Positions 9,406 through 21,373 of a stretch of DNA of 64,000 nt are shown piece after piece. The DNA lies in assembly GCF_020535245.1 (NCBI RefSeq), contig NZ_CP084911.1, positions 783,001 through 847,000 on the forward strand, given 5' to 3'. Source of the DNA: Asticcacaulis sp. AND118. GTDB lineage: Bacteria > Pseudomonadota > Alphaproteobacteria > Caulobacterales > Caulobacteraceae. Positions within the stretch are counted from its first letter, which is position 1; each line of letters opens with the position of its first letter. The notes under the pieces are model-generated. The model made no database searches. It was given only the letters and a program-made list of their open reading frames with translations, and was not told the DNA's origin. The position numbers were made by a program, and so were the translations under genes.

Positions 9406-9426
9406 AGATATGACATCTGCGTGTCA
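9406..9426. repeat. attL, left attachment-site core
   Basis: The 21-bp sequence beginning AGATATGACA and ending GCGTGTCA is identical to 20561-20581. It contains the dyad TGACA-N6-TGTCA (9411-9426), extended to ATATGACA/TGTCATAT by element sequence on the right. The integrase stop codon lies 32 bp away. Confidence 0.85.
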
Positions 9427-9457
9427 TATTAAAGCGCGTCCGAATATCGTATATTAA

Positions 9458-10564
9458 TCAAGCTATTACTAAGCTTCTGTGTGCGGTATCCGTGTGCTCT
9501 GTGTCCCCGTTGTGTCCCTCGAAATTCTGCGTTTTGGCTTCAGAATTCACTCGCTCGAACGCGGCATCAAGGAATGAGGATGTGTCCACATAGATTTTGA
9601 GCATGGTCTCGACGGTGTCTTCTGACCATCCCACGATTGCAGCGATCTCCGAGTTTCGGTAGCCGCTCTTGTAGAAGTTGGTTACCGCCGTCCCTCTGAA
9701 GTCGTGGAAGTGCTTGCCGGAAATCCCTGCCATCTTCTTGAACCGATAGAAGCGAGACCCAAAACCGTTTGCGGTCCAGGGGTTCCCATAGCCGTTCAAG
9801 ACGACATACTCACTATGACCGGAATAGGTGGCACACTCTTGTAAAACCTTCCGGCATTCCTCGGTGATCGGTGGGAATGCGAAACGCTTTCGCTTGGAGG
9901 TTTTGATCGCCACCTTCGTTGCCCGAACGTTTTCCCATTTCAGGTTTAGGATGTCGCCCATCCGAAGACCGAGGTGACACGCCAGGTCCACAACGCGCAT
10001 GACGTTGGGAGGGGTCGAGTCCCGGAGAACTTCGATGTCTTCGGGCGTCCAGATGATGTGGGATCGATCCGCGCGGTGGATACTGGCTATCCCGCGGGTC
10101 GGCTGAGCATCACAGATGCCTCTTGCCAGAAGCCACTTAAAGAAGATCGACACAATCTGGATTTTGTCGTCTGCGGCTTTGGGAGTGTGTTGGGACTCGT
10201 CGCGCCATTCAGCGAGATCGACCTTGATGTCAAGGCGAGAGAACATCGGCAGAGTGTAGTGACCGAAGGCGTCAGTGAACTTCTTCAGCAGACGCGTATA
10301 GTTAGCTTGGGTCAGGATGTTCAGGTTGGTGAACTCCGGCGATGCTTTGTATCTCTCGACCAGAGTTGGGATGTCTTGCGTGTCGCTAACCGCACGCTTC
10401 ACAAGCTTTAAGGCAATTTCTTTGGTGCGACCGGTTGCCTTGTTGAGTAGTGAACCGCCTTTTTTGTCATACAGATAGGCGTCAAACTGGTTTTCATTTC
10501 GTTTTACAACTTTGTGATACACGGCGTGCATTCCTTGCTTGTTGGAACGCATCTTCATAATCAT
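9458..10564 (-). CDS. int: Tyrosine-type site-specific integrase
   Basis: 368 aa. A core-binding SAM-like domain (about residues 60-150) precedes a catalytic domain with Arg201 (LGLRMGD), a beta-hairpin Lys near 221-226, the HxxR box His287/Arg290 (HDFR), Trp313 (GWSEDT) and the nucleophile Tyr325 (KIYVD). It should integrate and excise the element at the 21-bp repeat. No clear Shine-Dalgarno precedes the ATG at 10564; in-frame ATGs at 10558, 10552 and 10531 are alternatives. It overlaps the small ORF upstream. No terminator lies between its stop and the chromosome. Confidence 0.93.
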   Translation of the reverse strand: MIMKMRSNKQGMHAVYHKVVKRNENQFDAYLYDKKGGSLLNKATGRTKEIALKLVKRAVSDTQDIPTLVERYKASPEFTNLNILTQANYTRLLKKFTDAFGHYTLPMFSRLDIKVDLAEWRDESQHTPKAADDKIQIVSIFFKWLLARGICDAQPTRGIASIHRADRSHIIWTPEDIEVLRDSTPPNVMRVVDLACHLGLRMGDILNLKWENVRATKVAIKTSKRKRFAFPPITEECRKVLQECATYSGHSEYVVLNGYGNPWTANGFGSRFYRFKKMAGISGKHFHDFRGTAVTNFYKSGYRNSEIAAIVGWSEDTVETMLKIYVDTSSFLDAAFERVNSEAKTQNFEGHNGDTEHTDTAHRSLVIA

Positions 10565-10685
10565 TAACCGGTGAGGAAGTCAATATTCTGAAACCGCCAT
10601 CATTATTGAATATTACTTCAGTAATGGGAATATTTGCTAGTTTCAGAATGTCTAGTGCTTTCGTGAGTGAGTATGCTCTGGCCAT
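10494..10685 (-). CDS. Small protein overlapping the integrase start
   Basis: 63 aa, starting at ATG 10685 with AGGGG upstream; a GTG at 10697 is also in frame. The sequence (MARAYSLTKALDILKLANIPITEV then a short acidic beta-like segment NNDGGFRIL) resembles the short helix-plus-beta proteins often encoded just before integrases in alphaproteobacterial elements. The reading overlaps the integrase N-terminus by about 70 bases, suggesting coupled translation. It could assist integrase or act as an excision factor, but it has no clear HTH and the role is unknown. Confidence 0.5.
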   Translation of the reverse strand: MARAYSLTKALDILKLANIPITEVIFNNDGGFRILTSSPVNDYEDAFQQARNARRVSQSCKTK

Positions 10686-10693
10686 GCGAATAG

Positions 10694-10721
10694 ACACCCC
10701 TCACTGGCTGGCGAGGGGTGT
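10694..10721 (-). terminator. Hairpin after the membrane coiled-coil gene
   Basis: ACACCCCTC (10694-10702) pairs perfectly with GAGGGGTGT (10713-10721), eight bases after the stop of the gene ending at 10729. No T run follows on the minus strand, so it may be a weak terminator or an attenuator before the small ORF and integrase. Confidence 0.5.
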
Positions 10722-10728
10722 TCCTTTG

Positions 10729-11121
10729 TTACGCTCGTACTTGCTGAAGGGTCTCGACCGCTTTCTTGATCTTCTCGGTCGGGACGGTGGCGTCATCGAC
10801 GCTCAGGAGGCGGTTGCCTTGTTGTTCGAGAGCGAGGGCGCCGGCGAACAGCTTCTCGACCTCGTAGTTGACCAGCTCGCCGATCTTGGTCTGGGTCTTG
10901 CTGGCCTTCTTCATCTGCTGAAGGTCGAGCAGTTCCCGGATTTTCAGGACCAGCTCTTCGACCCGGACTTCCAGCTTCCAGCACAGGTCTTCGAACTTGC
11001 TCTGGCTGGCCTTCAGGGACTTGATCTGGGTGAAGGAGTCGGTCGGTTTGGTGCGGAGAACCGCGACGCCCGCCAGGCCAGCGAAGATGATCGCTGCGAA
11101 CGGGAGTAGGGATGTGTTCAT
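10729..11121 (-). CDS. Membrane-anchored coiled-coil protein of unknown function
   Basis: 130 aa. One N-terminal transmembrane segment (LLPFAAIIFAGLAGVAVL) is followed by a charged, heptad-like helix (about residues 30-100) with Leu/Ile spacing typical of coiled coils. AGAGG lies seven bases before the ATG, the same Shine-Dalgarno seen at several genes of the element. An 18-bp element palindrome starts 34 bp upstream of the start codon. The topology suggests an inner-membrane protein with a long helix projecting from it, as in phage spanin-like or exclusion proteins, but nothing identifies it. Confidence 0.7.
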   Translation of the reverse strand: MNTSLLPFAAIIFAGLAGVAVLRTKPTDSFTQIKSLKASQSKFEDLCWKLEVRVEELVLKIRELLDLQQMKKASKTQTKIGELVNYEVEKLFAGALALEQQGNRLLSVDDATVPTEKIKKAVETLQQVRA

Positions 11122-11154
11122 GTATTGCCTCTGTTTTGATTGTCTCGCACGTTG

Positions 11155-11172
11155 TAAGTAAGTGCTGACTTA
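11155..11172. promoter_or_regulatory. Element palindrome, copy A
   Basis: TAAGTAAGTGCTGACTTA matches the TAAGTnAGnnCTnACTTA consensus at every fixed position and sits 34 bp before the start of the coiled-coil gene. Confidence 0.8.
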
Positions 11173-11226
11173 TAATTATCCTCAAAAGAGAACACCGTCA
11201 ACCGAAATTGAGCGGCGTTCCCTGGA

Positions 11227-11652
11227 TTAAAGCGAAGTGCCTGCTGGCTTTTTCGCTTTCATGGCGTTGAGCGTCCGATTGAAATCGGTGCTCAGGAACG
11301 CAGGGTGAGCGGAGCATAGCTCATTGGCGATGGCTCCGCATGTGATGTGGGCGACGATGCGATAGCGCCCATTCCCAAGCGGCTCCTTCAGGATGTTCGC
11401 TTGGATGCCGGAGTCGGCTGAATTGTAGGTCGAGATTTGAACGTCGGTCTTGGTCTGGATCTTGTAGCTGGCGTTCTTCACCACCCAGACCTCAGCCATC
11501 TCCCACATGTCCCGGCACTCGGTGGCGGTTTCACAGACCGGGATGGTGGTCTGGTATTCGGTCCACGCAGCGGCGCGGTCCTCTTGAAACTGGGCCGACA
11601 CGCAGCCGGCGAGGGGTATCAGCGCGGTCAGCGCCAGCAGTTGTTTTAACAT
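11227..11652 (-). CDS. Small lipoprotein of the integrated element
   Basis: 141 aa with a short signal peptide ending in a lipobox (IPLAG-C17), so it should be anchored in a membrane after processing. The mature part contains five further Cys residues, including CETATEC, and no domain I recognise. AGGTG precedes the ATG at a good distance. It is the only full-length gene of the element without the 18-bp palindrome in front, so it may be expressed in the integrated state. Surface lipoproteins of mobile elements sometimes block superinfection; that is only an analogy here. Confidence 0.7.
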   Translation of the reverse strand: MLKQLLALTALIPLAGCVSAQFQEDRAAAWTEYQTTIPVCETATECRDMWEMAEVWVVKNASYKIQTKTDVQISTYNSADSGIQANILKEPLGNGRYRIVAHITCGAIANELCSAHPAFLSTDFNRTLNAMKAKKPAGTSL

Positions 11653-11747
11653 TCATCACCTGATTTGGTTGTTGGTGAATGTTAACCGCGCGTTAAGACC
11701 CCAGCAAGCTCCATCCACAGCTGAAATTGTGGGTTATTTCTACCCGC

Positions 11748-12587
11748 CTACACAAGCGCTCCGGAGAGGTAGGATTGCTTGTTTAGTCTTCTGCGCATCT
11801 CATGCGCTAAACCGCGTTTATCCTTCTCTTCCTTGCCGTAATCGTAGCCTTTTCCGCCGTCCTTCAGGTTATAGAGGTCGAGCGACGTGAAGCCGATGAT
11901 CTCGTGCTTGATCTTCAGATTATCGAGAACCTGAGAGAAGCCCCAAGCGGACTCGATCGCCGTTCTGCATTTCTGGCCGTGCATGGAGCCGGAGAGGTCT
12001 ATCAGCAGCGTCACAGCCACAGCTTTGGACTCATGGACGTGTTTGCGGCGGAAGACACGATCGTCGCCGGTGGAGAGACGGTGCAGCGAAGGCGAACTCA
12101 AGCGACCGCTACGATGACCGGGGACATAGTAGGATTGCGAGCGGGCGGCCATGATCGCATCAGTTTCCTTCGCCCATACGTCCTTGATGAGGTAATCGCG
12201 CAGAGCGGCGAGGTTGATCGCAGCGCCACGGAATTCCTTCGACATCTGGATCTCGATCCGGCAGTCCTCGACGATATTCGTCATGACGTGATGGCGGTTG
12301 CGCTTCTTCGAGCGCGGGTCTTCCGGAGAGTGGTTCGACGTGGTGAAGAGAGCGTGGGCGACTTCGTGGTCGAGGAAGCCTTGCAGCGCGGTCATGAACT
12401 CCGGCGTCGGGTTGTCCGGGATGATCGGCAGGTTGATCAGGATCGGCTTACCGGTGACGAGGTCGAACCTGCAGTAGGCTTGCGAACCCCGCTGGGTGAC
12501 TTGGATGCTGTTCTTAGCGAGGAGACGGACGGTCTTTACGATCGCCTCTCTGATCTCCGCTGCTTTGAGCATGGTTTGGTGTGACAT
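11748..12587 (-). CDS. Shortened CobT-like VWA/metallopeptidase-motif protein
   Basis: 279 aa. An HEVAH motif (about residues 76-80) within LDHEVAHALF and a C-terminal von Willebrand A domain with the MIDAS motif DLSGS (near residue 194) match the CobT-like proteins of large phages, where they work with a CobS-like AAA+ partner. Those proteins are usually about twice as long. Here the linker between the two domains is very short, and the VWA domain stops soon after YLSGALV, before its usual end. No CobS partner is present. The start at 12587 has AGAGG upstream; the in-frame start at 12620 would abut the palindrome and is unlikely. Confidence 0.75.
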   Translation of the reverse strand: MSHQTMLKAAEIREAIVKTVRLLAKNSIQVTQRGSQAYCRFDLVTGKPILINLPIIPDNPTPEFMTALQGFLDHEVAHALFTTSNHSPEDPRSKKRNRHHVMTNIVEDCRIEIQMSKEFRGAAINLAALRDYLIKDVWAKETDAIMAARSQSYYVPGHRSGRLSSPSLHRLSTGDDRVFRRKHVHESKAVAVTLLIDLSGSMHGQKCRTAIESAWGFSQVLDNLKIKHEIIGFTSLDLYNLKDGGKGYDYGKEEKDKRGLAHEMRRRLNKQSYLSGALV

Positions 12588-12622
12588 AGTGAGCCTCTGT
12601 TTTGCGTGTCTTTGCGACATTA

Positions 12623-12640
12623 TAAGTCAGTGCTTACTTA
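12623..12640. promoter_or_regulatory. Element palindrome, copy B
   Basis: TAAGTCAGTGCTTACTTA, a full consensus match, 36 bp before the CobT-like start. Confidence 0.8.
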
Positions 12641-12700
12641 TTAGCAGAGCGCTAACACGCATTCAAGCGGCGTATCGAGAGGTATGTCAGGAAAATAAAA

Positions 12701-12727
12701 AAGCCACAGTCGCTGGGACTGTGGCTT
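12701..12727 (-). terminator. Rho-independent terminator after the HTH regulator
   Basis: AAGCCACAGTC (12701-12711) pairs with GACTGTGGCTT (12717-12727), and on the minus strand the stem is followed by TTTTTTATTTT. It isolates the regulator transcript from the CobT-like gene. Confidence 0.88.
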
Positions 12728-12762
12728 GAGGTTGGGTAAGCAACACTGTGTAGCGAAGGCTG

Positions 12763-13245
12763 TTACGCGGCTTGCGGAGCGGCTTTCAGCGCCGCATCAC
12801 GGGCGCCGGGGTGAGCAATGACGGCTGCGATGGCTTCGATCGTTTCGTCGTTGAGGTCGTCCGGGATGCTGCCTTTTGTGCGAACGGCGCGGATGAAGCT
12901 CAGTTCAGGACCACGGACCAGGCGCTCATTGAGTGTCTGCAGCACTCGGTTACCGTCTTCCTTCTCGCCCATGTATGCTTCGAACCAGAAACCCATCAGC
13001 ATGGCTATGTCGAGGTTTAGGACACGAGAGAAGTCCGGGATCTTTTCCAGAGGGATCTTCATCTTGCCCGTGCGGATCATCGACAAAACGTTGGAGGTCT
13101 TGAAACCGATGTCTTTGGCAATCCTGTCAATGGTCCGACCTTGAGCCAGATGATCCCAGTTCTTGTTCAGGAACTCGGCGAAGGCCATGCCGGCGCCGGT
13201 CTTTGGTGCGATTTGAGGGCGTCCTTTGGCGGAGGTATCGTTCAT
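12763..13245 (-). CDS. XRE-like HTH regulator, candidate master repressor of the element
   Basis: 160 aa. A helix-turn-helix is predicted around residues 38-75 (TIDRIAKDIGFKTSNVLSMIRTG), followed by a helical region and an acidic C-terminus. A variant palindrome with symmetrical changes in both arms (TCAGT/ACTGA) lies 40 bp upstream, the pattern expected for autoregulation with altered affinity. A strong terminator follows. It is the only stand-alone DNA-binding regulator in the element, so it is the best candidate to bind the ten palindromes. That link is inferred from position and count, not shown. Confidence 0.72.
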   Translation of the reverse strand: MNDTSAKGRPQIAPKTGAGMAFAEFLNKNWDHLAQGRTIDRIAKDIGFKTSNVLSMIRTGKMKIPLEKIPDFSRVLNLDIAMLMGFWFEAYMGEKEDGNRVLQTLNERLVRGPELSFIRAVRTKGSIPDDLNDETIEAIAAVIAHPGARDAALKAAPQAA

Positions 13246-13284
13246 TCTTATCTCTGTGAGTGCTGCTTTTTCTAGTGTGACAAA

Positions 13285-13302
13285 TCAGTCAGTCCTTACT
13301 GA
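13285..13302. promoter_or_regulatory. Element palindrome, copy C (variant, before the regulator)
   Basis: TCAGTCAGTCCTTACTGA: the second base of each arm is changed symmetrically (A to C, T to G) relative to the consensus. It lies 40 bp before the HTH gene. Confidence 0.72.
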
Positions 13303-13425
13303 CAAAGCGACATTACGTTTACGCGCACGGTATGTCAACCAAATGATCTCTGGCTTATCGAATAAGTAGCAGAAGCACGCTTTACCATTAACTGACGATT
13401 AACCTCAGTGAGTATTGGAAAGGTA

Positions 13426-13968
13426 TTAAAATACTCCCCAGTCGGCATCGGCAGCGTAGAATTCGGCTTTGAGCTTGTTCTCCGACTCTCTTTCCTCTGG
13501 GGAAAGTGTAATTTCGGGTTCATAACTCTCGGTTGCTTTACTCGCTCCGGCGATGAACTGGACCGTCGCATAGTTGCGGTGATTTCTTACCAGAAATGGG
13601 TTGCTGATCTTATCCTTTACCCATACGGGATATTGATATGCTTTTTCGATATGAGACCAGAGTTCTTGAGGCGTATCGCACTCGGAAATAAATGCGGCAA
13701 CACCGCCCCAAACGCCGCCGGTGACGGTCTTGGTGGGCGACTTCATGAACAACTCGACATCTTTAACGTCCCGAATTGCCTCGGCAAATTGGCGTGGGGT
13801 CCACATATTGCCGTTATCGTTGTCCCAGCGCTTTTCGAACGTCTTAGGACGAGTCGCATCCTGTTTCACATATCGAAGAGTCACTGCGCCCTGAAGCGCG
13901 TAAATGGCGATTACGATTTCGCCATCTCTATAGTAGACGTATACCGCCTTCTTTTCTTTGGTTTGCAC
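13426..13968 (-). CDS. Element protein of unknown function with C-terminal DxxWGxF
   Basis: 180 aa, mixed alpha/beta, with no recognised domain. It starts at a GTG whose first base is the last base of the upstream gene's TAG (TAGTG), so the two are translationally coupled. The last seven residues, DADWGVF, match the end of its upstream partner (DPTWGMF), and both are preceded by a charged helix. Shared C-terminal aromatic-acidic tips are often docking peptides for a common partner, as in SSB or clamp-binding proteins; the partner is unknown here. Confidence 0.65.
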   Translation of the reverse strand: MQTKEKKAVYVYYRDGEIVIAIYALQGAVTLRYVKQDATRPKTFEKRWDNDNGNMWTPRQFAEAIRDVKDVELFMKSPTKTVTGGVWGGVAAFISECDTPQELWSHIEKAYQYPVWVKDKISNPFLVRNHRNYATVQFIAGASKATESYEPEITLSPEERESENKLKAEFYAADADWGVF

Positions 13969-14468
13969 TAAAACATTCCCCAGGTCGGGTCAGATTGAAC
14001 GGAAGAGAGGTATGCCTCTCGCTCAGCGAGTTCCCGGCGGAACAGCTTATTTGTAAGCCTTTCGCTTTCAGTTTCGCCCCGTAGGGCATTCAGCATCTCG
14101 CCCGCCTTCGGGTCCGCAACGATCTTGTTGAAGACCTCCGGGGCGTGTCCGATGAACGGGATAAGATCTGACGAGACATAGGTGAGCTTTGCGGCGTCAG
14201 CCTTGTTCGTTTGTATCCAGTGGCGCTTGAAGATCGGGTGGTTCTGGACATTGGTCATGGCGTCGCTGCGCGAGCGTGACAGGTCCAGTCGATAGGTAAG
14301 GTCGGCTTCAGAACGGAGCTTGGTCAGCGGGGTCGGGTTCTTGGCCGGCACCTGAAAGAGAGCCATTCCGAAGGGTGTTGCGATCAAGAGATGGACGATT
14401 GCGGTCTGACCCATATGACTCTTCGTCGTGTAGATCAGGCTGTCGCCCCAGCTATGTTTCGTGCTCAT
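13968..14468 (-). CDS. Element protein of unknown function with C-terminal DxxWGxF
   Basis: 166 aa from ATG 14468. An in-frame start at 14549 exists, but its codons would run through the palindrome at 14527-14544, so the downstream ATG is preferred. The first half is beta-rich (SLIYTTKSHMGQTAIVHLL), the second half helical and charged (ESERLTNKLFRRELAERE), ending in DPTWGMF. It shares this tip with the next gene, with which it overlaps by one base. No domain recognised. Confidence 0.65.
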   Translation of the reverse strand: MSTKHSWGDSLIYTTKSHMGQTAIVHLLIATPFGMALFQVPAKNPTPLTKLRSEADLTYRLDLSRSRSDAMTNVQNHPIFKRHWIQTNKADAAKLTYVSSDLIPFIGHAPEVFNKIVADPKAGEMLNALRGETESERLTNKLFRRELAEREAYLSSVQSDPTWGMF

Positions 14469-14526
14469 GGTAGCCGCCAAGTTGTATTCGTGTCTTGCGG
14501 AACAATCCGCGTCTGTTTTGAGGATA

Positions 14527-14544
14527 TAAGTAAGCTCTGACTTA
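14527..14544. promoter_or_regulatory. Element palindrome, copy D
   Basis: TAAGTAAGCTCTGACTTA, a full consensus match, 59 bp before the two-gene unit ending at 13426. Confidence 0.8.
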
Positions 14545-14552
14545 CACAAGTC

Positions 14553-14978
14553 TCACTTGTATGGGTTGTTCTTCTTCAGCCGAAGCCCGGAGATGCGTGT
14601 GTACTGTGTCGCAGTCTTCAGTGCCGACAGGATGACGTGGGTGTCAGCTTCGCCGGGATCGACCTTGGGAGGCATCAGGGCGACGAAAGACTTGATCCCA
14701 AGGGCATGTGTGACCTCGGCTGCTTTCACCGCTTCGTCATAGGCTTCAGGTTCGCCGTCATAGAGATAGATGGCTTCTTCGACGCCATTGTTCCGGAGCT
14801 TCCTAAGCGCGAGCTTCTGGTCATCCCCCTCCTTAGTTTCGGACAAATGCTTATCCAGATCGAAGTAGTCCGGTTTCACCAGCCCTTCCACGCGGTTCAT
14901 AAATGGAGTGTCGCGCAGGGAAAGGGCGATAATTTTGGACTGGAAAGCAGAGTCGTAAGTTACTGGGGCAGTAGTCAT
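14553..14978 (-). CDS. Apparent chimera of helicase N-terminus and primase Toprim tail
   Basis: 141 aa. Residues 1-45 (AFQSKIIALSLRDTPFMNRV, GLVKPDYF) look like the extreme N-terminus of a phage DnaB-type replicative helicase. Residues about 58-141 (EEAIYLYDGEPEAYDEAVKA, then a PPKVDPGEADTH segment) look like part of a Toprim domain from a phage DNA primase. Neither half could work alone: the helicase lacks its ATPase and the primase lacks its zinc and catalytic N-terminus. A deletion joining two neighbouring phage genes is the simplest origin. AAGG precedes the ATG. The assignments come from motif memory, not a search. Confidence 0.55.
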   Translation of the reverse strand: MTTAPVTYDSAFQSKIIALSLRDTPFMNRVEGLVKPDYFDLDKHLSETKEGDDQKLALRKLRNNGVEEAIYLYDGEPEAYDEAVKAAEVTHALGIKSFVALMPPKVDPGEADTHVILSALKTATQYTRISGLRLKKNNPYK

Positions 14979-15028
14979 TGGAAACCTTGAAACGTTCCGT
15001 TCGTCTCTATATCAATACTGAGCAATTG

Positions 15029-15046
15029 TCAGTCAGTAATGACTTA
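15029..15046. promoter_or_regulatory. Element palindrome, copy E
   Basis: TCAGTCAGTAATGACTTA, two departures from the consensus, 51 bp before the helicase/primase chimera. Confidence 0.68.
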
Positions 15047-15049
15047 TAA

Positions 15050-15733
15050 TTATGATAACGCCATATCGACGATGTAATCGCCGAACTTGGCTCGTGCCTT
15101 GGCTTCGCTGATCAGCGGTTCGTGCCGGAGGAAGTTGCGGAGGGGTATTTCGGGGCGGGGACGACCAGCGATGATACTCATGAGCCAGTTTTGGCAGTCG
15201 TCTTGGTAGGCGTGGCCGGCGTAGTTCACAGCGAGATACCGAGGATCGAGCGGGACGGTCATCAGCGACTGCTGGTCGGCTTCCCACTTGGCCTTGATGA
15301 ACATCACCAGCTTGTCGCCGTACAGGTGGCCGGGAAGGGGCATCCGCTGCCAGTTGCACTGGAACGCATACTGGAATGACCACTCGACCCATTTATCGTA
15401 GGGGATGCCATAGTGGTCGGCGAACATCACTGCCCGGAGCCAGGCGGTGCGCGTTCGATCCGGGGTAAGGGAGTATTCGACCTTGCCTTGGTTGCGCTTG
15501 CAGCGCCATATGGGGTGGCGGATGTGGTCGAGCTTGAAGTAGGGGCTCACCCCGAACTTGGAGCGCCAGCGCTCTATCGCCTCGCCGTAGTAGTGGCAGA
15601 AGAGATAGACCGAATGACCCAGATGCAGGAAGCGGTAGTCGTACCACTTAGACGCAAAGAGCGACCTGGCATCCTCCAAGTCCTTCTGACCGAATGCGAA
15701 AGCCACAAGACCATCAAGTCGGTCGCGGGGCAT
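15050..15733 (-). CDS. Element protein of unknown function
   Basis: 227 aa from ATG 15733, which has GGA upstream; a TTG at 15775 would add 14 residues but lacks a ribosome site. The sequence is rich in Trp, Tyr and His (RFLHLGHSVYLFCHYYGEA, YGIPYDKWVEWSFQYAF) and looks like a compact soluble alpha-helical protein. I recognise no family. Palindrome F lies just upstream, and the stop codon is within a few bases of palindrome E, so the unit is a tightly packed single gene. Confidence 0.65.
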   Translation of the reverse strand: MPRDRLDGLVAFAFGQKDLEDARSLFASKWYDYRFLHLGHSVYLFCHYYGEAIERWRSKFGVSPYFKLDHIRHPIWRCKRNQGKVEYSLTPDRTRTAWLRAVMFADHYGIPYDKWVEWSFQYAFQCNWQRMPLPGHLYGDKLVMFIKAKWEADQQSLMTVPLDPRYLAVNYAGHAYQDDCQNWLMSIIAGRPRPEIPLRNFLRHEPLISEAKARAKFGDYIVDMALS

Positions 15734-15793
15734 ATCAATTCCGTCAAAGTGCGGGAGGTGCTGCAGGTCGCTCAATGTGGGGCTCGCTCGTTA

Positions 15794-15811
15794 TAAGTAA
15801 GTGCTGACTTA
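15794..15811. promoter_or_regulatory. Element palindrome, copy F
   Basis: TAAGTAAGTGCTGACTTA, identical to copy A, 61 bp before ATG 15733. Confidence 0.8.
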
Positions 15812-15832
15812 TAAATGCTGCGAAAAAGACCG

Positions 15833-16606
15833 TCAAGTAGCGTTTGTGATGAATTTCGGTAGGGGCGGGGAGTCTTCGCCTTCGTAGGCATCGACAATGG
15901 CGCGAGCGATACCGGAGCGAACCACGTCAGCGCGGGTGAAGGTCACTTGCGCGATACCGGGAATGCCTGACAGCTTCTCGATGGCATCGGCGAGACCATT
16001 CGGGCCGGGGATGTCGGATTGGTTCAGGTCGCCGTTGATCACCACTTTGGCGTCTTCACCGATGCGGGTGAGGAACATCTTCATCTGCCTGGGAGTAGCA
16101 TTCTGGGCTTCGTCGAGGATGACGAAGGCGCCGGAGAAGGTGCGACCGCGCATGTAGGCCAGCGGGACGAACTCGATCTGACCATGCTCCAAGGCGTATT
16201 TAACGCGGGACTTGCCGAGTCGGCGTTCGAGGACTTCGAGGACAGGAACGAAGTACGGGCCAATCTTGTCTTCCATCTCACCGGGGAGGAAACCGATGGC
16301 TTCGCCGGCTTCAATGGCAGGACGTGAGACGATTATTTTCGAGACTGCTCCCGCTTCGAACTGCTCCGCGGCATAGGACGACGCGAGGAAGGTCTTGCCC
16401 GTACCTGCTGGACCGAGACCCAGTGTGAGCGTCTGACCTGCCATCTTGGCAAGGTAGCGCTTCTGGTTGTCGTTCATACCCTTGATGGGTCGATTGTCGA
16501 TCTTGTTGGGGACTGGACGTTCGTCGTGATAAACAGGCTCGTCGTAGCGCTTGCGACGACCACGTTGGCTGTTTGATTGCGTATCCTTACGCACTCGATT
16601 ACCCAT
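15833..16606 (-). CDS. phoH: PhoH-like ATPase
   Basis: 257 aa. Walker A GPAGTGKT lies at about residues 62-70, and Walker B ILDEAQNAT with an adjacent helicase-like region (QMKMFLTRIG) follows. This is the PhoH fold (RecA-like NTPase, possible RNA helicase), very common in phage genomes. The N-terminus is basic (RGRRKRYDEP). The ATG at 16606 has GGAG upstream. Palindrome G lies 40 bp upstream. It is one of the clearest phage-type genes of the element. Confidence 0.88.
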   Translation of the reverse strand: MGNRVRKDTQSNSQRGRRKRYDEPVYHDERPVPNKIDNRPIKGMNDNQKRYLAKMAGQTLTLGLGPAGTGKTFLASSYAAEQFEAGAVSKIIVSRPAIEAGEAIGFLPGEMEDKIGPYFVPVLEVLERRLGKSRVKYALEHGQIEFVPLAYMRGRTFSGAFVILDEAQNATPRQMKMFLTRIGEDAKVVINGDLNQSDIPGPNGLADAIEKLSGIPGIAQVTFTRADVVRSGIARAIVDAYEGEDSPPLPKFITNAT

Positions 16607-16645
16607 TCATGTTACTCCATAGTGACAGGGTGTCGATCCATATTG

Positions 16646-16663
16646 TAAGTCAGAGCTTACTTA
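16646..16663. promoter_or_regulatory. Element palindrome, copy G
   Basis: TAAGTCAGAGCTTACTTA, a full consensus match, 40 bp before phoH. It overlaps the stop codon of the preceding metallophosphoesterase gene. Confidence 0.8.
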
Positions 16664-18018
16664 ATATCACTACTTGATTTTTGCAATCCTGCTTTTTCCA
16701 CAGGGATGTTCCAGGCGTTTCCGTGGAAGGTGATCATAACGCGATGGCCGTTCTGGTATTGCCAGACATCGGAGTGCGACCAGCTCGACATTCCGCCGTT
16801 GTAACCGAGATCGAGCTTCGATTTTGTGCCGGATTGCCAGACATCACCCAGTACGGCGCAAGAATGTGCGTGACCGAAGGTCGCCTTGATACCCGTGCGT
16901 CGGTAGCCGGCGATGGAGCCGCGGCTTCCGTTGACGCCCTCGTGGCCGTGCATACCGTTCTCGATGTCGTCGATGGTGTGCGACTGGTCGGGCGCGAGAG
17001 CGTTTTTGATGTTGTGGTGGTTGCGGGCGTAGAAGTCCGAAACGTCTTCGAACTGCTGGTATTCGGGGCGCATCGTGTCGATGACCGAACCGGGGATATT
17101 CTCGACCCAGACTCGGTGGCCGTTGGCGCGTCGGTTGGTCGGCATGATCCCGAAGCTGGCTGCGCAGACTTCAGGGTCGATCTGCTTCACATGGAGGTCG
17201 CCCCAGGTGATCGACTTCAGGTTATGGCCGGTGGTGACGACGCCATTGGAGATGCGACGGTCGAGGTCGTAGAAGCTGCCATCTTCTTCGGCGATCAGAT
17301 GTCGGCAGAAAAACTTCCCGATGTGATCAGTTTCGACCAGTACGGCAGATAGCGAGTGTTCCAGCTCAGCCTTGATGCCGGCGCGCAACGGGACGTAGTT
17401 GGTCCGGGTGACGCAGCCGGTGGACAGCAGGATCTTGGGTTGCTTCTGCTTATGGGTCGGGACGGATTTGATCTGAAGCTTAGCGTGCGGGAAGATACCC
17501 CAGCGGTCCTCGGTGAAGTTCTCACACCCATTGAGCGGATTGCTGGCGGTCGGACGGGTGTTCAGTTCAGCGCAGAAATCGACGACGCCATTGATGTTGA
17601 TGTGATCGAAGACGAGGTATTTCGTGAGGGAATGATGGAAGAGCCCGGAGCGTTTGGCGTGGTCTTCGAAGAGGCTCTTGTTGTAGGTGAAGCCGGCGAT
17701 CATGATGTCGCAGGGTGCGTCTTCGTTGAGCCATGCACAGTAGGCTTCCAGCTGCGCCAGGAAGCCCTCGTGGACCACGGTGCGGTCTTGGGCGCTGGTG
17801 AGGATAAAGCGGCGTACACCCTGGTCTACGCGCTCTTCTATGGGCTTCAGGACGGGGCGGTGGTTCCACTGCTCATCTCTTGCCTTCTTCAGGCGAGCTT
17901 GGAGGGTGGTTCGCGGAATGCCGTACTTGCGTTCGAAGGGTCGTTGACCGCCTACTTCTTTGACCAGTGCGATCAGCTCCGAGGCAGAGAGCGAGTTCAA
18001 GTCGAGTTGTTTGGGCAT
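16657..18018 (-). CDS. HTH-metallophosphoesterase fusion, phage T5 A1-like
   Basis: 453 aa. The N-terminus has a homeodomain-like HTH (RPFERKYGIPRTTLQARLKKA, about residues 25-50). The body carries calcineurin-type metal motifs: GDLH near 272, a NHHN element near 335, HGHEG, and GHAH near 380. This architecture matches phage proteins related to T5 A1, a pre-early protein needed for host DNA breakdown and second-step DNA transfer. The A1 relation is from memory of the family and should be treated as likely, not certain. Palindrome H lies 102 bp upstream, farther than usual. Confidence 0.65.
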   Translation of the reverse strand: MPKQLDLNSLSASELIALVKEVGGQRPFERKYGIPRTTLQARLKKARDEQWNHRPVLKPIEERVDQGVRRFILTSAQDRTVVHEGFLAQLEAYCAWLNEDAPCDIMIAGFTYNKSLFEDHAKRSGLFHHSLTKYLVFDHININGVVDFCAELNTRPTASNPLNGCENFTEDRWGIFPHAKLQIKSVPTHKQKQPKILLSTGCVTRTNYVPLRAGIKAELEHSLSAVLVETDHIGKFFCRHLIAEEDGSFYDLDRRISNGVVTTGHNLKSITWGDLHVKQIDPEVCAASFGIMPTNRRANGHRVWVENIPGSVIDTMRPEYQQFEDVSDFYARNHHNIKNALAPDQSHTIDDIENGMHGHEGVNGSRGSIAGYRRTGIKATFGHAHSCAVLGDVWQSGTKSKLDLGYNGGMSSWSHSDVWQYQNGHRVMITFHGNAWNIPVEKAGLQKSSSDIK

Positions 18019-18119
18019 AAAACTCTGGGATCAGAGTTGATAGAAAAGCCTAAGCTTTCGGTCTTAACCCCAAGCAGGAGTTAGATATTGCTTGATAATG
18101 ATAACAAGCTGCAAGAATA

Positions 18120-18137
18120 TAAGTCAATGCTGACTTA
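18120..18137. promoter_or_regulatory. Element palindrome, copy H
   Basis: TAAGTCAATGCTGACTTA, one departure from the consensus, upstream of the metallophosphoesterase gene and just after the tail-spike terminator. Confidence 0.75.
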
Positions 18138-18149
18138 TTAATCAAAGAA

Positions 18150-18175
18150 AAACCCCGAACCGAAGTCCGGGGTTT
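18150..18175 (-). terminator. Rho-independent terminator after the tail-spike gene
   Basis: AAACCCCG (18150-18157) and CGGGGTTT (18168-18175) form a stem followed on the minus strand by TTTTTCTTT, directly after the stop at 18182. Confidence 0.85.
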
Positions 18176-18181
18176 GTTGGC

Positions 18182-19693
18182 TTAGGCTGTGCCTGGTTTC
18201 CAGTTCAGATCCACTGTACCGGCGCCGCCCCAGGTCAGATCGCTGTCGGGGGCGAAGACTTTCACAATGGTTTGGGAAAGCGCTCTGATGTCTGCGAACG
18301 AACCGCCCTTCTTGAAGTAAGGGTACATGACGTAGATCAGTGTGCCGGCGCCATCGACTTGGATGTTGCAGCTTTCGACCGTACCGCCGTTCAGAACGTC
18401 CCCGCGATCGAAACCGAAGGTGTCGAACGCCGACAGACAGCGCGAGCCACCGATATTCCGGATATGACAGCCGCCGGAGGTGTCGTAGTCGTTACACAGG
18501 CTCATCCCGATACATTCCGGGGTGTCGTGCAGGGTGAGGCCCTGAGCCGACTGGGTGTTCTTTCGACCCATGTCGCGACTGAAGCCGTTGACGACGACCG
18601 TCAGGGATTGAGTCCCAGCGCGAACGATGTGCGAGTTGATCCAGTCCGAACCGGCGGAATATCCGCGACAGTCGAAGGCATAATGAAGACCATGCAGGCC
18701 ATCGGTAGCCAGACCACGGAAACCGTGTGCCGTCGTGACGCGGTGGGTGACAAGGCACTTCATTTGCTGGGGAAGAGCGCCGGACTGGACGGCATAAGCG
18801 ATCGACGCGCCGCCGTTTGCAGAAGCGTTGGGGCCGTTCGAGCCACCCATCATCAGCCAGCTATCGGTGCCGCTTTCGCAGAAGAAGCCGATATTCACGT
18901 CGGACTGCACTTCGAACAGCGGCACGGGACGCAGAATGCGAATGTCGTAATAGGAGACGCCGGGGATGACACCGTTCTTAACGTGCAGGCGTACTTTGCC
19001 GTTAGCTGTGTCGATAAAGAACGAGCCTTCGGCTTCATCCACCTGATCGATAGCGTCCACTTGCTCATATGCGCCCCAAGTGAAGCCGTACTTCTCAGAC
19101 GGCAGACGCTGGATGACCATGTGAGCGTTCGAAGTGGTCACGTCATAGACGCCTGGCTTGCCGGCGACCGGGACGAACGAGGCTGCGATTACGCTGTTAT
19201 TGTGCGTACTCAGGTCGATCTGACCACCACGGGCGACGAAGGCCATATCTACGGTGGCACGGACGATACCGGAGCCGCCGCCTGGACCATTCTCACGACC
19301 CCAGACCGACCCCGTGCCGGAGCGAATGATATACGCCTTACACGGCTGACCGGTGGCGTTGGCCAGGGTCTGCATCCGTGTCCAGCTCTTAACCGCGGCG
19401 CCAAGCGTCAGACCGTCGTTCGCATCGTTGCCGAGGACGCAGTCCACGTAATAGGTGCGGAACGGGGCGGTGAAGGCTGTGGAGAACGTATTAAAGACTG
19501 CTTCGGGCGTCATCGACGCTGCAGCGCGACGGGTGACCGGATTGACCTTGAAGGACAAGCCAGCCGGCATCGCGGGGTGATCTCGGATCAGGGGCGGCAG
19601 TGTCAGAGGCACGAGAAACGACGAGTAGCCGGGGATGCCGATTTCCGACCGTTGAACCAAGTCGAATTTGGCGATGTCGCCGGGAGTGAGCAT
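18182..19693 (-). CDS. Beta-helix tail-spike/appendage-like protein
   Basis: 503 aa. After an N-terminal segment (about residues 1-75) that could bind a tail or partner protein, the sequence begins the pattern YYVDCVLGNDANDGLT, typical of pectin-lyase-fold phage spikes. It continues with Gly/Asn-rich beta-helix turns and a closing Trp-Gly-rich tip (DLTWGGAGTVDLNW). No signal peptide. GAGAGG lies directly before the ATG, and palindrome I ends 15 bp upstream. A receptor-binding spike on an element with no capsid or tail genes is unusual and suggests it equips particles made by a helper. Confidence 0.68.
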   Translation of the reverse strand: MLTPGDIAKFDLVQRSEIGIPGYSSFLVPLTLPPLIRDHPAMPAGLSFKVNPVTRRAAASMTPEAVFNTFSTAFTAPFRTYYVDCVLGNDANDGLTLGAAVKSWTRMQTLANATGQPCKAYIIRSGTGSVWGRENGPGGGSGIVRATVDMAFVARGGQIDLSTHNNSVIAASFVPVAGKPGVYDVTTSNAHMVIQRLPSEKYGFTWGAYEQVDAIDQVDEAEGSFFIDTANGKVRLHVKNGVIPGVSYYDIRILRPVPLFEVQSDVNIGFFCESGTDSWLMMGGSNGPNASANGGASIAYAVQSGALPQQMKCLVTHRVTTAHGFRGLATDGLHGLHYAFDCRGYSAGSDWINSHIVRAGTQSLTVVVNGFSRDMGRKNTQSAQGLTLHDTPECIGMSLCNDYDTSGGCHIRNIGGSRCLSAFDTFGFDRGDVLNGGTVESCNIQVDGAGTLIYVMYPYFKKGGSFADIRALSQTIVKVFAPDSDLTWGGAGTVDLNWKPGTA

Positions 19694-19707
19694 TACCTCT
19701 CCAATTA

Positions 19708-19725
19708 TAAGTCAGTAGTTACTTA
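19708..19725. promoter_or_regulatory. Element palindrome, copy I
   Basis: TAAGTCAGTAGTTACTTA, one departure from the consensus, only 15 bp before the tail-spike start. Confidence 0.75.
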
Positions 19726-19734
19726 TGGAAATGT

Positions 19735-19766
19735 GCACGGCTATCCCGCGAAGGAGATAGCCGTGC
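19735..19766 (-). terminator. Hairpin after the beta-rich protein gene
   Basis: GCACGGCTATC (19735-19745) and GATAGCCGTGC (19756-19766) are perfect arms, directly after the stop at 19775. Only a short T stretch follows on the minus strand. Confidence 0.7.
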
Positions 19767-19774
19767 TTTGAGGG

Positions 19775-20311
19775 TTAAGATTGCAGCTTGATGTAGTCGA
19801 ACTGGCGGATGATCACCTGCGGGCGACCAGCGCCACTGACCTGGATGTTCAGACGCACCGTTGCGGCAGTCTGGTTACCGGTTGGGATCTCCGCGACCGG
19901 CGTGGTGATCACGTACTTCTTGTAGTTTTCGGGCAAAGGACCATCGGAAGCGGCGATCGTGTATCCCATCCCCACTGGGTTAGCGACGCCATCGGTCGTG
20001 GTGGTGAACATCAGTTCGATACCAGTCAGAACGGACGCACCGTCGAGGTTTCCCGATACGACATCGACTTCGACGACAGCGACATATTTGGCGCCTTGTT
20101 CGAGGGACGCCGTGTGAAGGAACTGAGCGGTGGCACCGGCAGTAGCAGTGAACGTGCAATTCAGTTGCCTACCCTTGGGGCTCATAAGCTTGAGCTTGGT
20201 CACGGCGACTGCAAACTCGATGCGCCCTTCCATCCTAAGCAGGTACTTAGTATCGAGGGTCCGCATAAGGAAACCAAGCGACGCGCGCTTGGTAGCGTCG
20301 AACTTACTCAT
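19775..20311 (-). CDS. Beta-rich element protein, possible appendage or carbohydrate-binding partner of the spike
   Basis: 178 aa, mostly short beta strands (RIEFAVAVTKLKLM, AKYVAVVEVDVV, TVRLNIQVSGAG, QVIIRQFDYIKL), consistent with a jelly-roll or carbohydrate-binding-like sandwich. No signal peptide or recognised family. It sits next to the tail-spike gene, so a role in particle adsorption is possible by context. The ATG at 20311 has the element's shared ACAGAGG ribosome site and a palindrome 34 bp upstream. Confidence 0.6.
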   Translation of the reverse strand: MSKFDATKRASLGFLMRTLDTKYLLRMEGRIEFAVAVTKLKLMSPKGRQLNCTFTATAGATAQFLHTASLEQGAKYVAVVEVDVVSGNLDGASVLTGIELMFTTTTDGVANPVGMGYTIAASDGPLPENYKKYVITTPVAEIPTGNQTAATVRLNIQVSGAGRPQVIIRQFDYIKLQS

Positions 20312-20344
20312 TAATGCCTCTGTCTTGTTATGTCGCTCACGTCA

Positions 20345-20362
20345 TAAGTAAGCGCTGACTTA
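20345..20362. promoter_or_regulatory. Element palindrome, copy J
   Basis: TAAGTAAGCGCTGACTTA, a full consensus match, 34 bp before the beta-rich protein start. Confidence 0.8.
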
Positions 20363-20437
20363 TAAATACCATAATGACGATCAGGATCAACAGGCAAATT
20401 TTATTATTTTCGGAGGCGCACATGTGGACAAAAGAAA

Positions 20438-20465
20438 TGCCGGTTCCATATAGGAGGAACCGGCA
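20438..20465 (-). terminator. Terminator at the right end of the element, facing attR
   Basis: TGCCGGTTCC (20438-20447) pairs with GGAACCGGCA (20456-20465), followed on the minus strand by TTTCTTTT. No gene lies between it and attR, but in an excised circle the minus-strand integrase would run across attP into it. Confidence 0.75.
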
Positions 20466-20560
20466 GACAATGTGTGCTACTTTGGCTGCACGAAACGACG
20501 CGAACCGCACTTCTGTGTCCCCATATTGCTAAAAGTGCAATTAATACAGTGGGATAGCGC

Positions 20561-20581
20561 AGATATGACATCTGCGTGTCA
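20561..20581. repeat. attR, right attachment-site core
   Basis: Exact copy of 9406-9426. On the element side it extends into a 7-bp inverted repeat, CGCAGAT (20558-20564) and ATCTGCG (20570-20576), around ATGAC. This is the layout of core-type integrase sites around a crossover region. Confidence 0.85.
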
Positions 20582-20644: not shown

Positions 20645-21373
20645 ATGGCTCACCAGCCTTACGAGACGCTGATTCATAACGGCAAGGTCGCTGACGCAAC
20701 CGACGCCCTGATTCTCGACCTGCCCGCCGTCTGTGGCGATCAGGCGCTGGAGGCGTCAGCCTGCTGCAAGCGTCCGCGCGGCCGCCCGCGCGCCTACGAT
20801 CCGGATCTGGTGCTTGAAAAGGCCTTGCGCGTCTTCTGGGAAAAGGGCTTTGCCGCGACGTCGCTTGACGATCTGGTCGAGGCGACGGGCGTCAACCGCC
20901 CCAGCCTCTATGCCGGTTTTGGCGACAAGGAAGCGCTTTATCTCAAATCCATGCAGCGTTATCGTCGCCGTATCAGCGAGCAACTGGACACGGTGCTGAG
21001 TTGCAATGGCACGGGCGACAGCCTGCCGGTCATCGTGCGGCGCTATTTCGACATCATGATCGGCACCTATACCGGTCAGAGCGAACATCCGCTGGGCTGC
21101 GCCTTCATGTGTACGGCGCTCAACGAGGCCCCGCAGCACGAATCGATCCTCGAAATGCTGCAGAACACCATTGAGGAATTCGATGTGCGTTTCGAGCGCT
21201 TTTTCACAGACGCCCAAACCTATGGCTGTCTGAGCAACAATCATGATCCCAGGGTGCTGGCTCAGATGATCGGCGGCATTACCGCCAATCTGGGGGTGCG
21301 GGCGCGGGCCGGCGCCTCGGCGGCAGAACTGCGCGCCATTGCCGACAGCACGACGCGACTGCTGTTCGGCTAA
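20645..21373 (+). CDS. TetR/AcrR-family regulator, probably of the RND operon
   Basis: 242 aa. A TetR HTH (about residues 55-100, with LDDLVEATGVNRPSLYAGFGDKE) is followed by a helical ligand-binding domain. About 45 extra residues precede the usual RGRPR start of the HTH. A later start would lose the AAGGAG at 20627-20632, so the long form is kept, though spacing is 12 bases. Without the integrated element this gene would lie about 290 bp from, and divergent to, the RND adaptor gene, the classic acrR-acrAB arrangement. It is thus the probable repressor of that pump. Confidence 0.85.
   Translation: MAHQPYETLIHNGKVADATDALILDLPAVCGDQALEASACCKRPRGRPRAYDPDLVLEKALRVFWEKGFAATSLDDLVEATGVNRPSLYAGFGDKEALYLKSMQRYRRRISEQLDTVLSCNGTGDSLPVIVRRYFDIMIGTYTGQSEHPLGCAFMCTALNEAPQHESILEMLQNTIEEFDVRFERFFTDAQTYGCLSNNHDPRVLAQMIGGITANLGVRARAGASAAELRAIADSTTRLLFG

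Follow-up and report, generated by a model that had tools for sequence, protein, structure and literature searches.

The operators of phage lambda lie in two clustered regions, and stoperators are asymmetric, oriented sites that stop elongation. One immunity repressor acting at many sites over the genome is known from Cluster A mycobacteriophages (PMC9283540), and in the large plasmid-forming phage P1 22 operators of the C1 repressor are scattered over the genome, so that many units are silenced separately (PMC8546580). Phage-plasmid regulators reviewed in 2024 include those of VP882, AimR, the LexA type and N15, and the portion of that review available to us names none for the SSU5/RHEph10-like group of phage-plasmids (PMC11652158). 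Here we describe a stretch of 64,000 nucleotides from Asticcacaulis sp. AND118 (contig NZ_CP084911.1, positions 783,001 to 847,000; hereafter the window), in which an integrated element of ∼11.2 kb (9406–20581) carries ten copies of an 18-bp palindrome. We conclude that a prophage immunity repressor, the helix-turn-helix (HTH) protein of 160 amino acids (aa) encoded at 12763–13245, very probably has these palindromes as its operators, and that the system is shared with a family of phage-plasmids.

Like P1 with its C1 repressor, the element would combine one repressor with dispersed operators before many units, but the P1 operator is asymmetric and 17 bp long (as described in the accessible text of PMC8546580), whereas that of the element is an 18-bp palindrome and its proposed repressor is presumably a different one. 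Cluster A phages also pair one repressor with many sites; their stoperators are asymmetric, whereas the sites of the element are symmetric and stand before start codons. By analogy, the system of the element appears closer to the dispersed-operator immunity of P1 than to stoperators. The SSU5-like phage-plasmids have the palindrome, CobT and phrog_2500 in common with the element, as well as an HTH gene beside cobT in Escherichia phage Cyrano, but they are plasmids of ∼105–110 kb with virion and replication genes, whereas the element is 11.2 kb long, integrated and without such genes. The annotators of Cyrano named the HTH protein CYRAN_45 a putative repressor, and the accessible part of their report mentions no operators (PMC9928086). 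Elements of the RHEph10/pLM21S1 type share the operator core, and the gene order of RHEph10 is collinear with that of the element, its repressor gene being annotated as hypothetical; these replicate as plasmids through RepC, whereas the element uses integrase-based integration. The literature searched yielded no account of a set of operators in the SSU5/RHEph10-like group, which is not proof that none exists, as work on phage D6 and circular plasmid prophages may cover it; the main text of PMC9600943, as available, contains neither 'repressor' nor 'operator', and the available part of PMC12977533 holds no relevant passage.

Number, specificity and placement of the palindromes

Ten 18-bp sites resembling TAAGTnAGnnCTnACTTA lie upstream of genes throughout the element. 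All ten were found where a preliminary description of this DNA had placed them, and they are the sole matches with three or fewer mismatches in the window, compared with a mean of 0.33 and a maximum of 2 in 100 dinucleotide shuffles of it. The pattern given in that description fits six of the ten exactly, the sites beginning at 18120 and 19708 departing from it by one mismatch and those at 13285 and 15029 by two. When the whole genome (4.05 Mb) was scanned with up to three mismatches allowed, 28 places were found, 10 of which are the element sites, and the element accounts for every one of the six exact places and for two of the three with one mismatch. Because the reversed pattern, used as a control, gave 53 places in the same genome at the same threshold, the loose matches outside the element are best regarded as background. 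Many chromosomal matches, which the preliminary description had held to be evidence against its proposal, were not seen beyond this background, and the consensus is specific to the element.

The genes behind all ten sites are on the minus strand, with start codons 14–101 bp away. Operator 1 (11155–11172, exact match) lies 33 bp before the gene for a 130-aa protein, operator 2 (12623–12640, exact) 35 bp before cobT, and operator 3 (13285–13302, two symmetric mismatches) 39 bp before the HTH gene. These are followed by operator 4 (14527–14544, exact), 58 bp before an ATG at 14468; operator 5 (15029–15046, two mismatches), 50 bp before a helicase/primase fusion gene; operator 6 (15794–15811, exact), 18 bp before the gene for a 241-aa protein; and operator 7 (16646–16663, exact), 39 bp before phoH. 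Operators 8 (18120–18137, one mismatch), 9 (19708–19725, one mismatch) and 10 (20345–20362, exact) precede the genes for an A1-like protein, a 503-aa protein and a 178-aa protein by 101, 14 and 33 bp, respectively. The spacing of 34–40 bp proposed earlier thus describes about half of the sites, and the statement that all are intergenic is nearly right: operator 7 overlaps the final bases of the 453-aa A1-like gene (which ends at 16657), and operator 4 falls within the longest, 193-aa reading of its open reading frame (ORF), though upstream of the ATG at 14468. A site before nearly every unit was also borne out, as 10 of the 13 genes counted have one; those without a site of their own are the integrase gene, the gene for a 141-aa lipoprotein-like protein, and 13426–13968, the second gene of a pair. 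In operator 3 both outer arms are changed symmetrically to TCAGT...ACTGA, a peculiarity already pointed out for the copy upstream of the HTH gene, and these outer arms are the norm in RHEph10.

In the mechanism that we propose, a repressor dimer would sit on each 18-bp palindrome, overlapping or adjoining the promoter of the next gene, and each transcription unit would be silenced separately during dormancy, in the simplest mode through promoter occlusion; the variant operator at 13285 may tune expression of the HTH gene itself. At operator 6, TTGACG and TATAAG are found 17 nt apart on the gene strand, ending in the operator arm, and 4 of the 9 minus-strand promoter-like matches in the window overlap a palindrome. 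In pLM21S1, CTATA occurs at most 16 nt upstream in 8 of 13 palindromes, and is likely a −10 element. Terminator-like hairpins upstream of the sites at 12623 (12727–12701, minus strand), 18120 (18175–18150) and 20345 are consistent with separate transcription units. In the ∼110-kb relatives, the same operator and the repressor gene beside cobT would control the whole phage genome.

Recurrence of the palindrome with a repressor-like protein

The preliminary description had suggested a scan of phage databases with the consensus, and the palindromes do recur in CobT phages and phage-plasmids. For this we derived a weight matrix solely from the ten palindromes of the window, with column-permuted matrices (200 per stretch) as the control. 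At a score of at least 10 there were 7 and 8 sites in two 50-kb pieces of Cyrano, 8 in pJN2-26, 7 in PhiR41, 14 in SSU5 and 13 in RHEph10, and also 18 and 18 in two pieces from Shinella, 17 in pLM21S1, 10 in Acinetobacter and 16 each in the Methylobacterium plasmids pAMS5a and that of M. oryzae; these counts include overlapping placements and drop a little without them (SSU5, for instance, then has 12 at a score of 8). Permuted matrices gave means of 0.14–0.60 for the set of Cyrano, pJN2-26, PhiR41, SSU5, RHEph10, nickie and ANB28, with a range of 0.41–0.60 for the first five, and none of 200 reached the observed count where sites were present; for Shinella, pLM21S1, pAMS5a, M. oryzae and Acinetobacter the means were 0.27–0.70, and one of 200 reached the pLM21S1 count, otherwise none. 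Sites were intergenic in 44 of 49 cases in five enteric stretches (intergenic share of the sequence, 8–18%) and in 12 of 15 cases in RHEph10 (6%).

A larger set of 83 related loci was assembled from an alignment of phrog_2500 against viral contigs (76 loci) and one of CobT against genome contigs (7 loci); some of its members duplicate other loci in the set or phages analysed above, and the loci are therefore not independent. A search of viral contigs with the single phrog_2500 protein returned nothing. The 83 loci (1.34 Mb) hold 337 sites at a score of at least 12, compared with ∼6 for permuted matrices, with at least two sites in 69 loci, at least three in 55 and none in 8. When viral contigs were scanned blindly with the palindrome only, 20 of the 80 stretches listed had at least three matrix sites, and among the stretches listed, at least two regions resembling the CobT phage family were found in 18 of 20 with at least three sites versus 6 of 45 with one. 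Members of the HTH family accompany the palindromes in hosts from several classes of proteobacteria. The idea that such an arrangement is peculiar to a small element was not upheld, as the same operators are scattered across phage-plasmid relatives of ∼110 kb.

The HTH gene of the window lies directly before cobT. A relative was found in 36 of the 83 loci, many of which end before the cobT region, and 30 of these 36 have at least three sites. The distance from HTH gene to cobT start is 0.4–1.1 kb in all 29 loci that hold both; one locus, L232, has CobT without the HTH protein, but that stretch begins only ∼0.6 kb before CobT. The few phage matches of the HTH protein are the putative repressor of Cyrano, encoded between integrase and cobT, and unannotated or hypothetical Klebsiella phage proteins. 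RHEph10 gp041, annotated as hypothetical, is also a relative (31% identity over 85 aa, two-sequence E-value 7e-13). The HTH protein of the window gives weak matches to HTH_3 and phrog_8, and a profile of ten relatives matches a solved 'immunity repressor protein' (8bny, E-value 8.7e-6) and 434 Cro (E-value 0.016). In the structural model (mean predicted local distance difference test score, 82.9) a helical bundle is well predicted over residues 20–90, and a fold search returned the general 434/lambda HTH fold, with a template modelling score on the target of 0.74 for the 434 repressor (2or1); the N-terminal HTH fold would thus be of the same general type as in lambda and 434 CI and Cro, the Foldseek E-values being 0.04 or higher. 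In the lysogen of E. coli LF82, CYRAN_45 was expressed 10-fold above background, according to the accessible text of PMC9928086. The earlier proposal that one repressor, for which the HTH protein is the likeliest candidate, would act on nearly every unit individually, including through a modified operator at the repressor gene, is supported by the specificity of the sites and by their recurrence with HTH relatives.

Several observations weigh against this interpretation. Foldseek searches with the HTH model gave no match at an E-value of 0.001 or below (best, 0.04), and identities among the HTH relatives are low, about 20–30%. Of 16 Cyrano first genes standing directly behind an operator, none is in the list of lysogen-expressed genes given in PMC9928086, but the number to be expected by chance is only 1.8 (P = 0.12). 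Three loci (L182, L205 and L230) have an HTH relative and no site at a score of 12; either operator specificity has probably changed in them or the association of HTH protein and site fails. Within the same bacterial family, 20-kb stretches with a chromosomal relative of the HTH protein held no site in one genome (G272) and one weak site in another (G146). In SSU5 the sites are kept, and an HTH relative was not found in the whole record with the Cyrano protein as query or in 40 kb with the profile. The stretches read of nickie and ANB28 contain neither a site at a score of at least 10 nor the HTH protein. Promoter-like matches in the window total 10, only a modest excess over shuffled sequence (5.6 ± 2.1). 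Binding, repression, autoregulation and induction are for this element inferred from sequence. With the single HTH sequence as query, phmmer found nothing relevant, and when genome contigs were scanned with the HTH protein, 112 stretches fitted a pattern but none was confirmed.

Some of these loci have features of their own. When L182 and L205 were searched de novo for palindromes, no clear candidate for a different operator emerged. In L230 (Paracoccus litorisediminis), four repeats resembling GAAAACGAGGTTTTCGGGG, with an AAAAC-GTTTT motif, lie at 4611–5035 near the HTH relative. SSU5 has no annotated gene at 19004–19753, where relatives have integrase and HTH genes, and could possibly be a natural virulent derivative. 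In L232, from a betaproteobacterial metagenome-assembled genome, the outer arms of operator-like palindromes are changed (TCTAGTAAG...CTAGA). Cyrano (positions 1–100000) also has a second palindrome, AAACAANTTGTTT, dispersed in 9 exact copies, or 18 at one mismatch or fewer, and in 2–3 exact copies in the pJN2-26, PhiR41 and SSU5 stretches; no exact copy was found in the alphaproteobacterial and Acinetobacter stretches tested, and none in the window. It is probably the site of another regulator in enteric phage-plasmids.

The integrated element and its shortened genes

The element is a site-specifically integrated unit, as indicated by an att repeat and by empty sites in the same genus. The att core (AGATATGACATCTGCGTGTCA), a 21-bp perfect direct repeat on the plus strand at 9406–9426 and 20561–20581, defines an att-to-att period of 11,155 bp, brackets all element genes including that of the tyrosine integrase, and is confined to these two places in the genome when as many as three mismatches are allowed. 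A TetR-family gene in the flank (20645–21373) is present in 24 of 25 same-genus genomes, and at all 19 TetR loci examined the same membrane-fusion gene adjoins it, with no element. Five of these loci have a single att core identical at 20 of 21 bases; for three of them the joined flanks gave one continuous alignment over the junction, and for two the alignment was split into two pieces. At the other 14 of the 19 loci the core was unrecognizable (best, at least 8 mismatches).

All genes of the element are on the minus strand. The 368-aa integrase (9458–10564; Pfam Phage_integrase 4.6e-16, phrog_1 2.5e-31) is followed by the 130-aa ORF (10729–11121), which has no family match of weight, and by the 141-aa protein (11227–11652; phrog_16082, 2e-12), read as lipoprotein-like from its visible N-terminus; the latter gene, being operator-free, is a candidate for expression during dormancy. 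The relative of phage CobT (11748–12587; Pfam, PHROG and alignments), 279 aa from its ATG, and the HTH gene precede a pair consisting of 13968–14468, without a family in its reading from the ATG (the longest ORF starts at a TTG at 14549), and 13426–13968, a 180-aa ORF without a family match. Beyond these lie a 141-aa fusion of a helicase N-terminus and the TOPRIM end of a primase, recognized by alignment to relatives (14553–14978), the 241-aa protein (15050–15775; phrog_2500, 7.4e-25), a 257-aa PhoH-like ATPase (15833–16606; Pfam PhoH 1.3e-74), a protein resembling the T5 A1 'DNA transfer' protein (16657–18018; 453 aa, phrog_1745, 1.1e-120), a hydrolase-like protein (18182–19693; 503 aa, phrog_16653, 2.2e-43) and the 178-aa ORF without a family match (19775–20311). 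Searches of the element ORFs against Pfam and PHROGs revealed no virion, terminase or plasmid replication gene.

In Rhizobium phage RHEph10 the order is A1-like, phoH, phrog_2500, helicase, primase, further genes, HTH and cobT, which the element matches, with helicase and primase reduced to one fusion; the same organization occurs in plasmid records of ∼116–119 kb from Shinella, Sinorhizobium and Methylobacterium, the pAMS5a stretch examined ending before the HTH-cobT region. As judged from these alignments, the element is a collinear, shortened and integrated relative of the ∼110-kb temperate CobT/PhoH phages and phage-plasmids. Against seven phage CobT proteins (640–904 aa) the CobT of the window aligns in two pieces, with ∼400 middle residues missing in most comparisons, and it ends early, so that a C-terminal part is missing as well. 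In the A1-like protein, residues 339 and 341 join where CcrBL10 has 363 and 471, a loss of 107 internal residues relative to CcrBL10 and Bajun, and a similar stretch is missing relative to RHEph10; it carries an ESNHD motif, which we take to be part of a metallophosphoesterase active site. Residues 8–39 of the fusion ORF align to helicase residues 22–53 and residues 43–140 to primase residues 267–365 of the M. oryzae plasmid, as they do against four other relatives, and the fusion is in frame and retains its own operator. PhoH, the 241-aa protein, the HTH protein and the integrase are apparently full length. Three in-frame deletion or fusion events would occur by chance about 1 time in 27, which leaves both decay under selection and maintained function possible. 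The jumbo Caulobacter phages CcrBL10 and Bajun, which gave the best A1 matches, were considered as a source of the sites and rejected, as stretches of ∼26 kb from both are site-free. Among 385 genomes of the class, a phrog_2500 search found only the genome of the window.

Alternative explanations and significance

The competing explanation that survives best, which we nonetheless consider unlikely, is that the element is a maintained satellite or domesticated island rather than a decaying prophage, its shortened phage proteins being controlled by operators like those of a related phage, so as to be switched on with that phage and interfere with it. It shares with PICI- and PLE-like satellites an integrase, a regulator, precise att sites with a known empty site, and small size; integrase and HTH protein are full length, the three independent in-frame deletions or fusions left all ORFs open, and ten operators in ∼9 kb compare with roughly 16–18 per 40 kb in relatives. 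On the other hand, no packaging gene or partner phage was identified, a phage-plasmid capsid query of the same genome found nothing (in a search without a positive control), the A1-like gene was found in just one of the 390 genomes searched from the family, and the chance level of the three in-frame events is not strong. PADLOC, applied to ten element proteins, returned only weak ATPase-type matches, to PhoH. The fuller form of this idea, a functional interference satellite, seems to us marginally more doubtful still: in it, the shortened A1-like, helicase/primase and CobT proteins would possibly be dominant-negative, and an arriving or awakening phage that lifted repression would induce its own inhibitors.

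It is also conceivable, at a distinctly lower probability, that the palindromes are operators of another regulator, such as a host factor, the neighbouring TetR protein or a regulator encoded by a superinfecting phage. A TetR-type gene lies at the border of the element, palindromes are common among TetR operators, and SSU5 has sites with no HTH protein detected. That TetR gene, however, belongs to the host flank and occurs without the element, as described above, and we reject it on that ground; moreover, exact sites in the genome are limited to the element, and sites and HTH family are found together in unrelated hosts from several classes of proteobacteria. Least probable of all is that the palindromes are stoperators, the likeness drawn in the preliminary description, or terminators that halt or pause transcription inside transcribed regions, since, despite the many copies per genome, the capacity of palindromes to fold in RNA and one site (13303–13288) picked up by a terminator scan, the sites are symmetric, unlike the asymmetric, oriented stoperators, stand a short distance ahead of start codons on or close to promoter-like sequences, lie mostly between genes in relatives, and are accompanied in some cases by distinct G+C-rich terminator-like hairpins just upstream.

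The palindromes and the HTH protein are best explained as dispersed-operator immunity of the P1 kind in a new variant, conserved over a large phage-plasmid family and still present in a small relative that is integrated. Phage-plasmids of the SSU5-like and related kinds are widespread: 922 of 72,556 plasmid records matched a phrog_2500 query. If this explanation holds, one matrix would predict immunity regulons for hundreds of elements across several classes of proteobacteria, the repressor gene, which several records annotate as hypothetical, would be identified, and homoimmunity between very distant phages would become testable.

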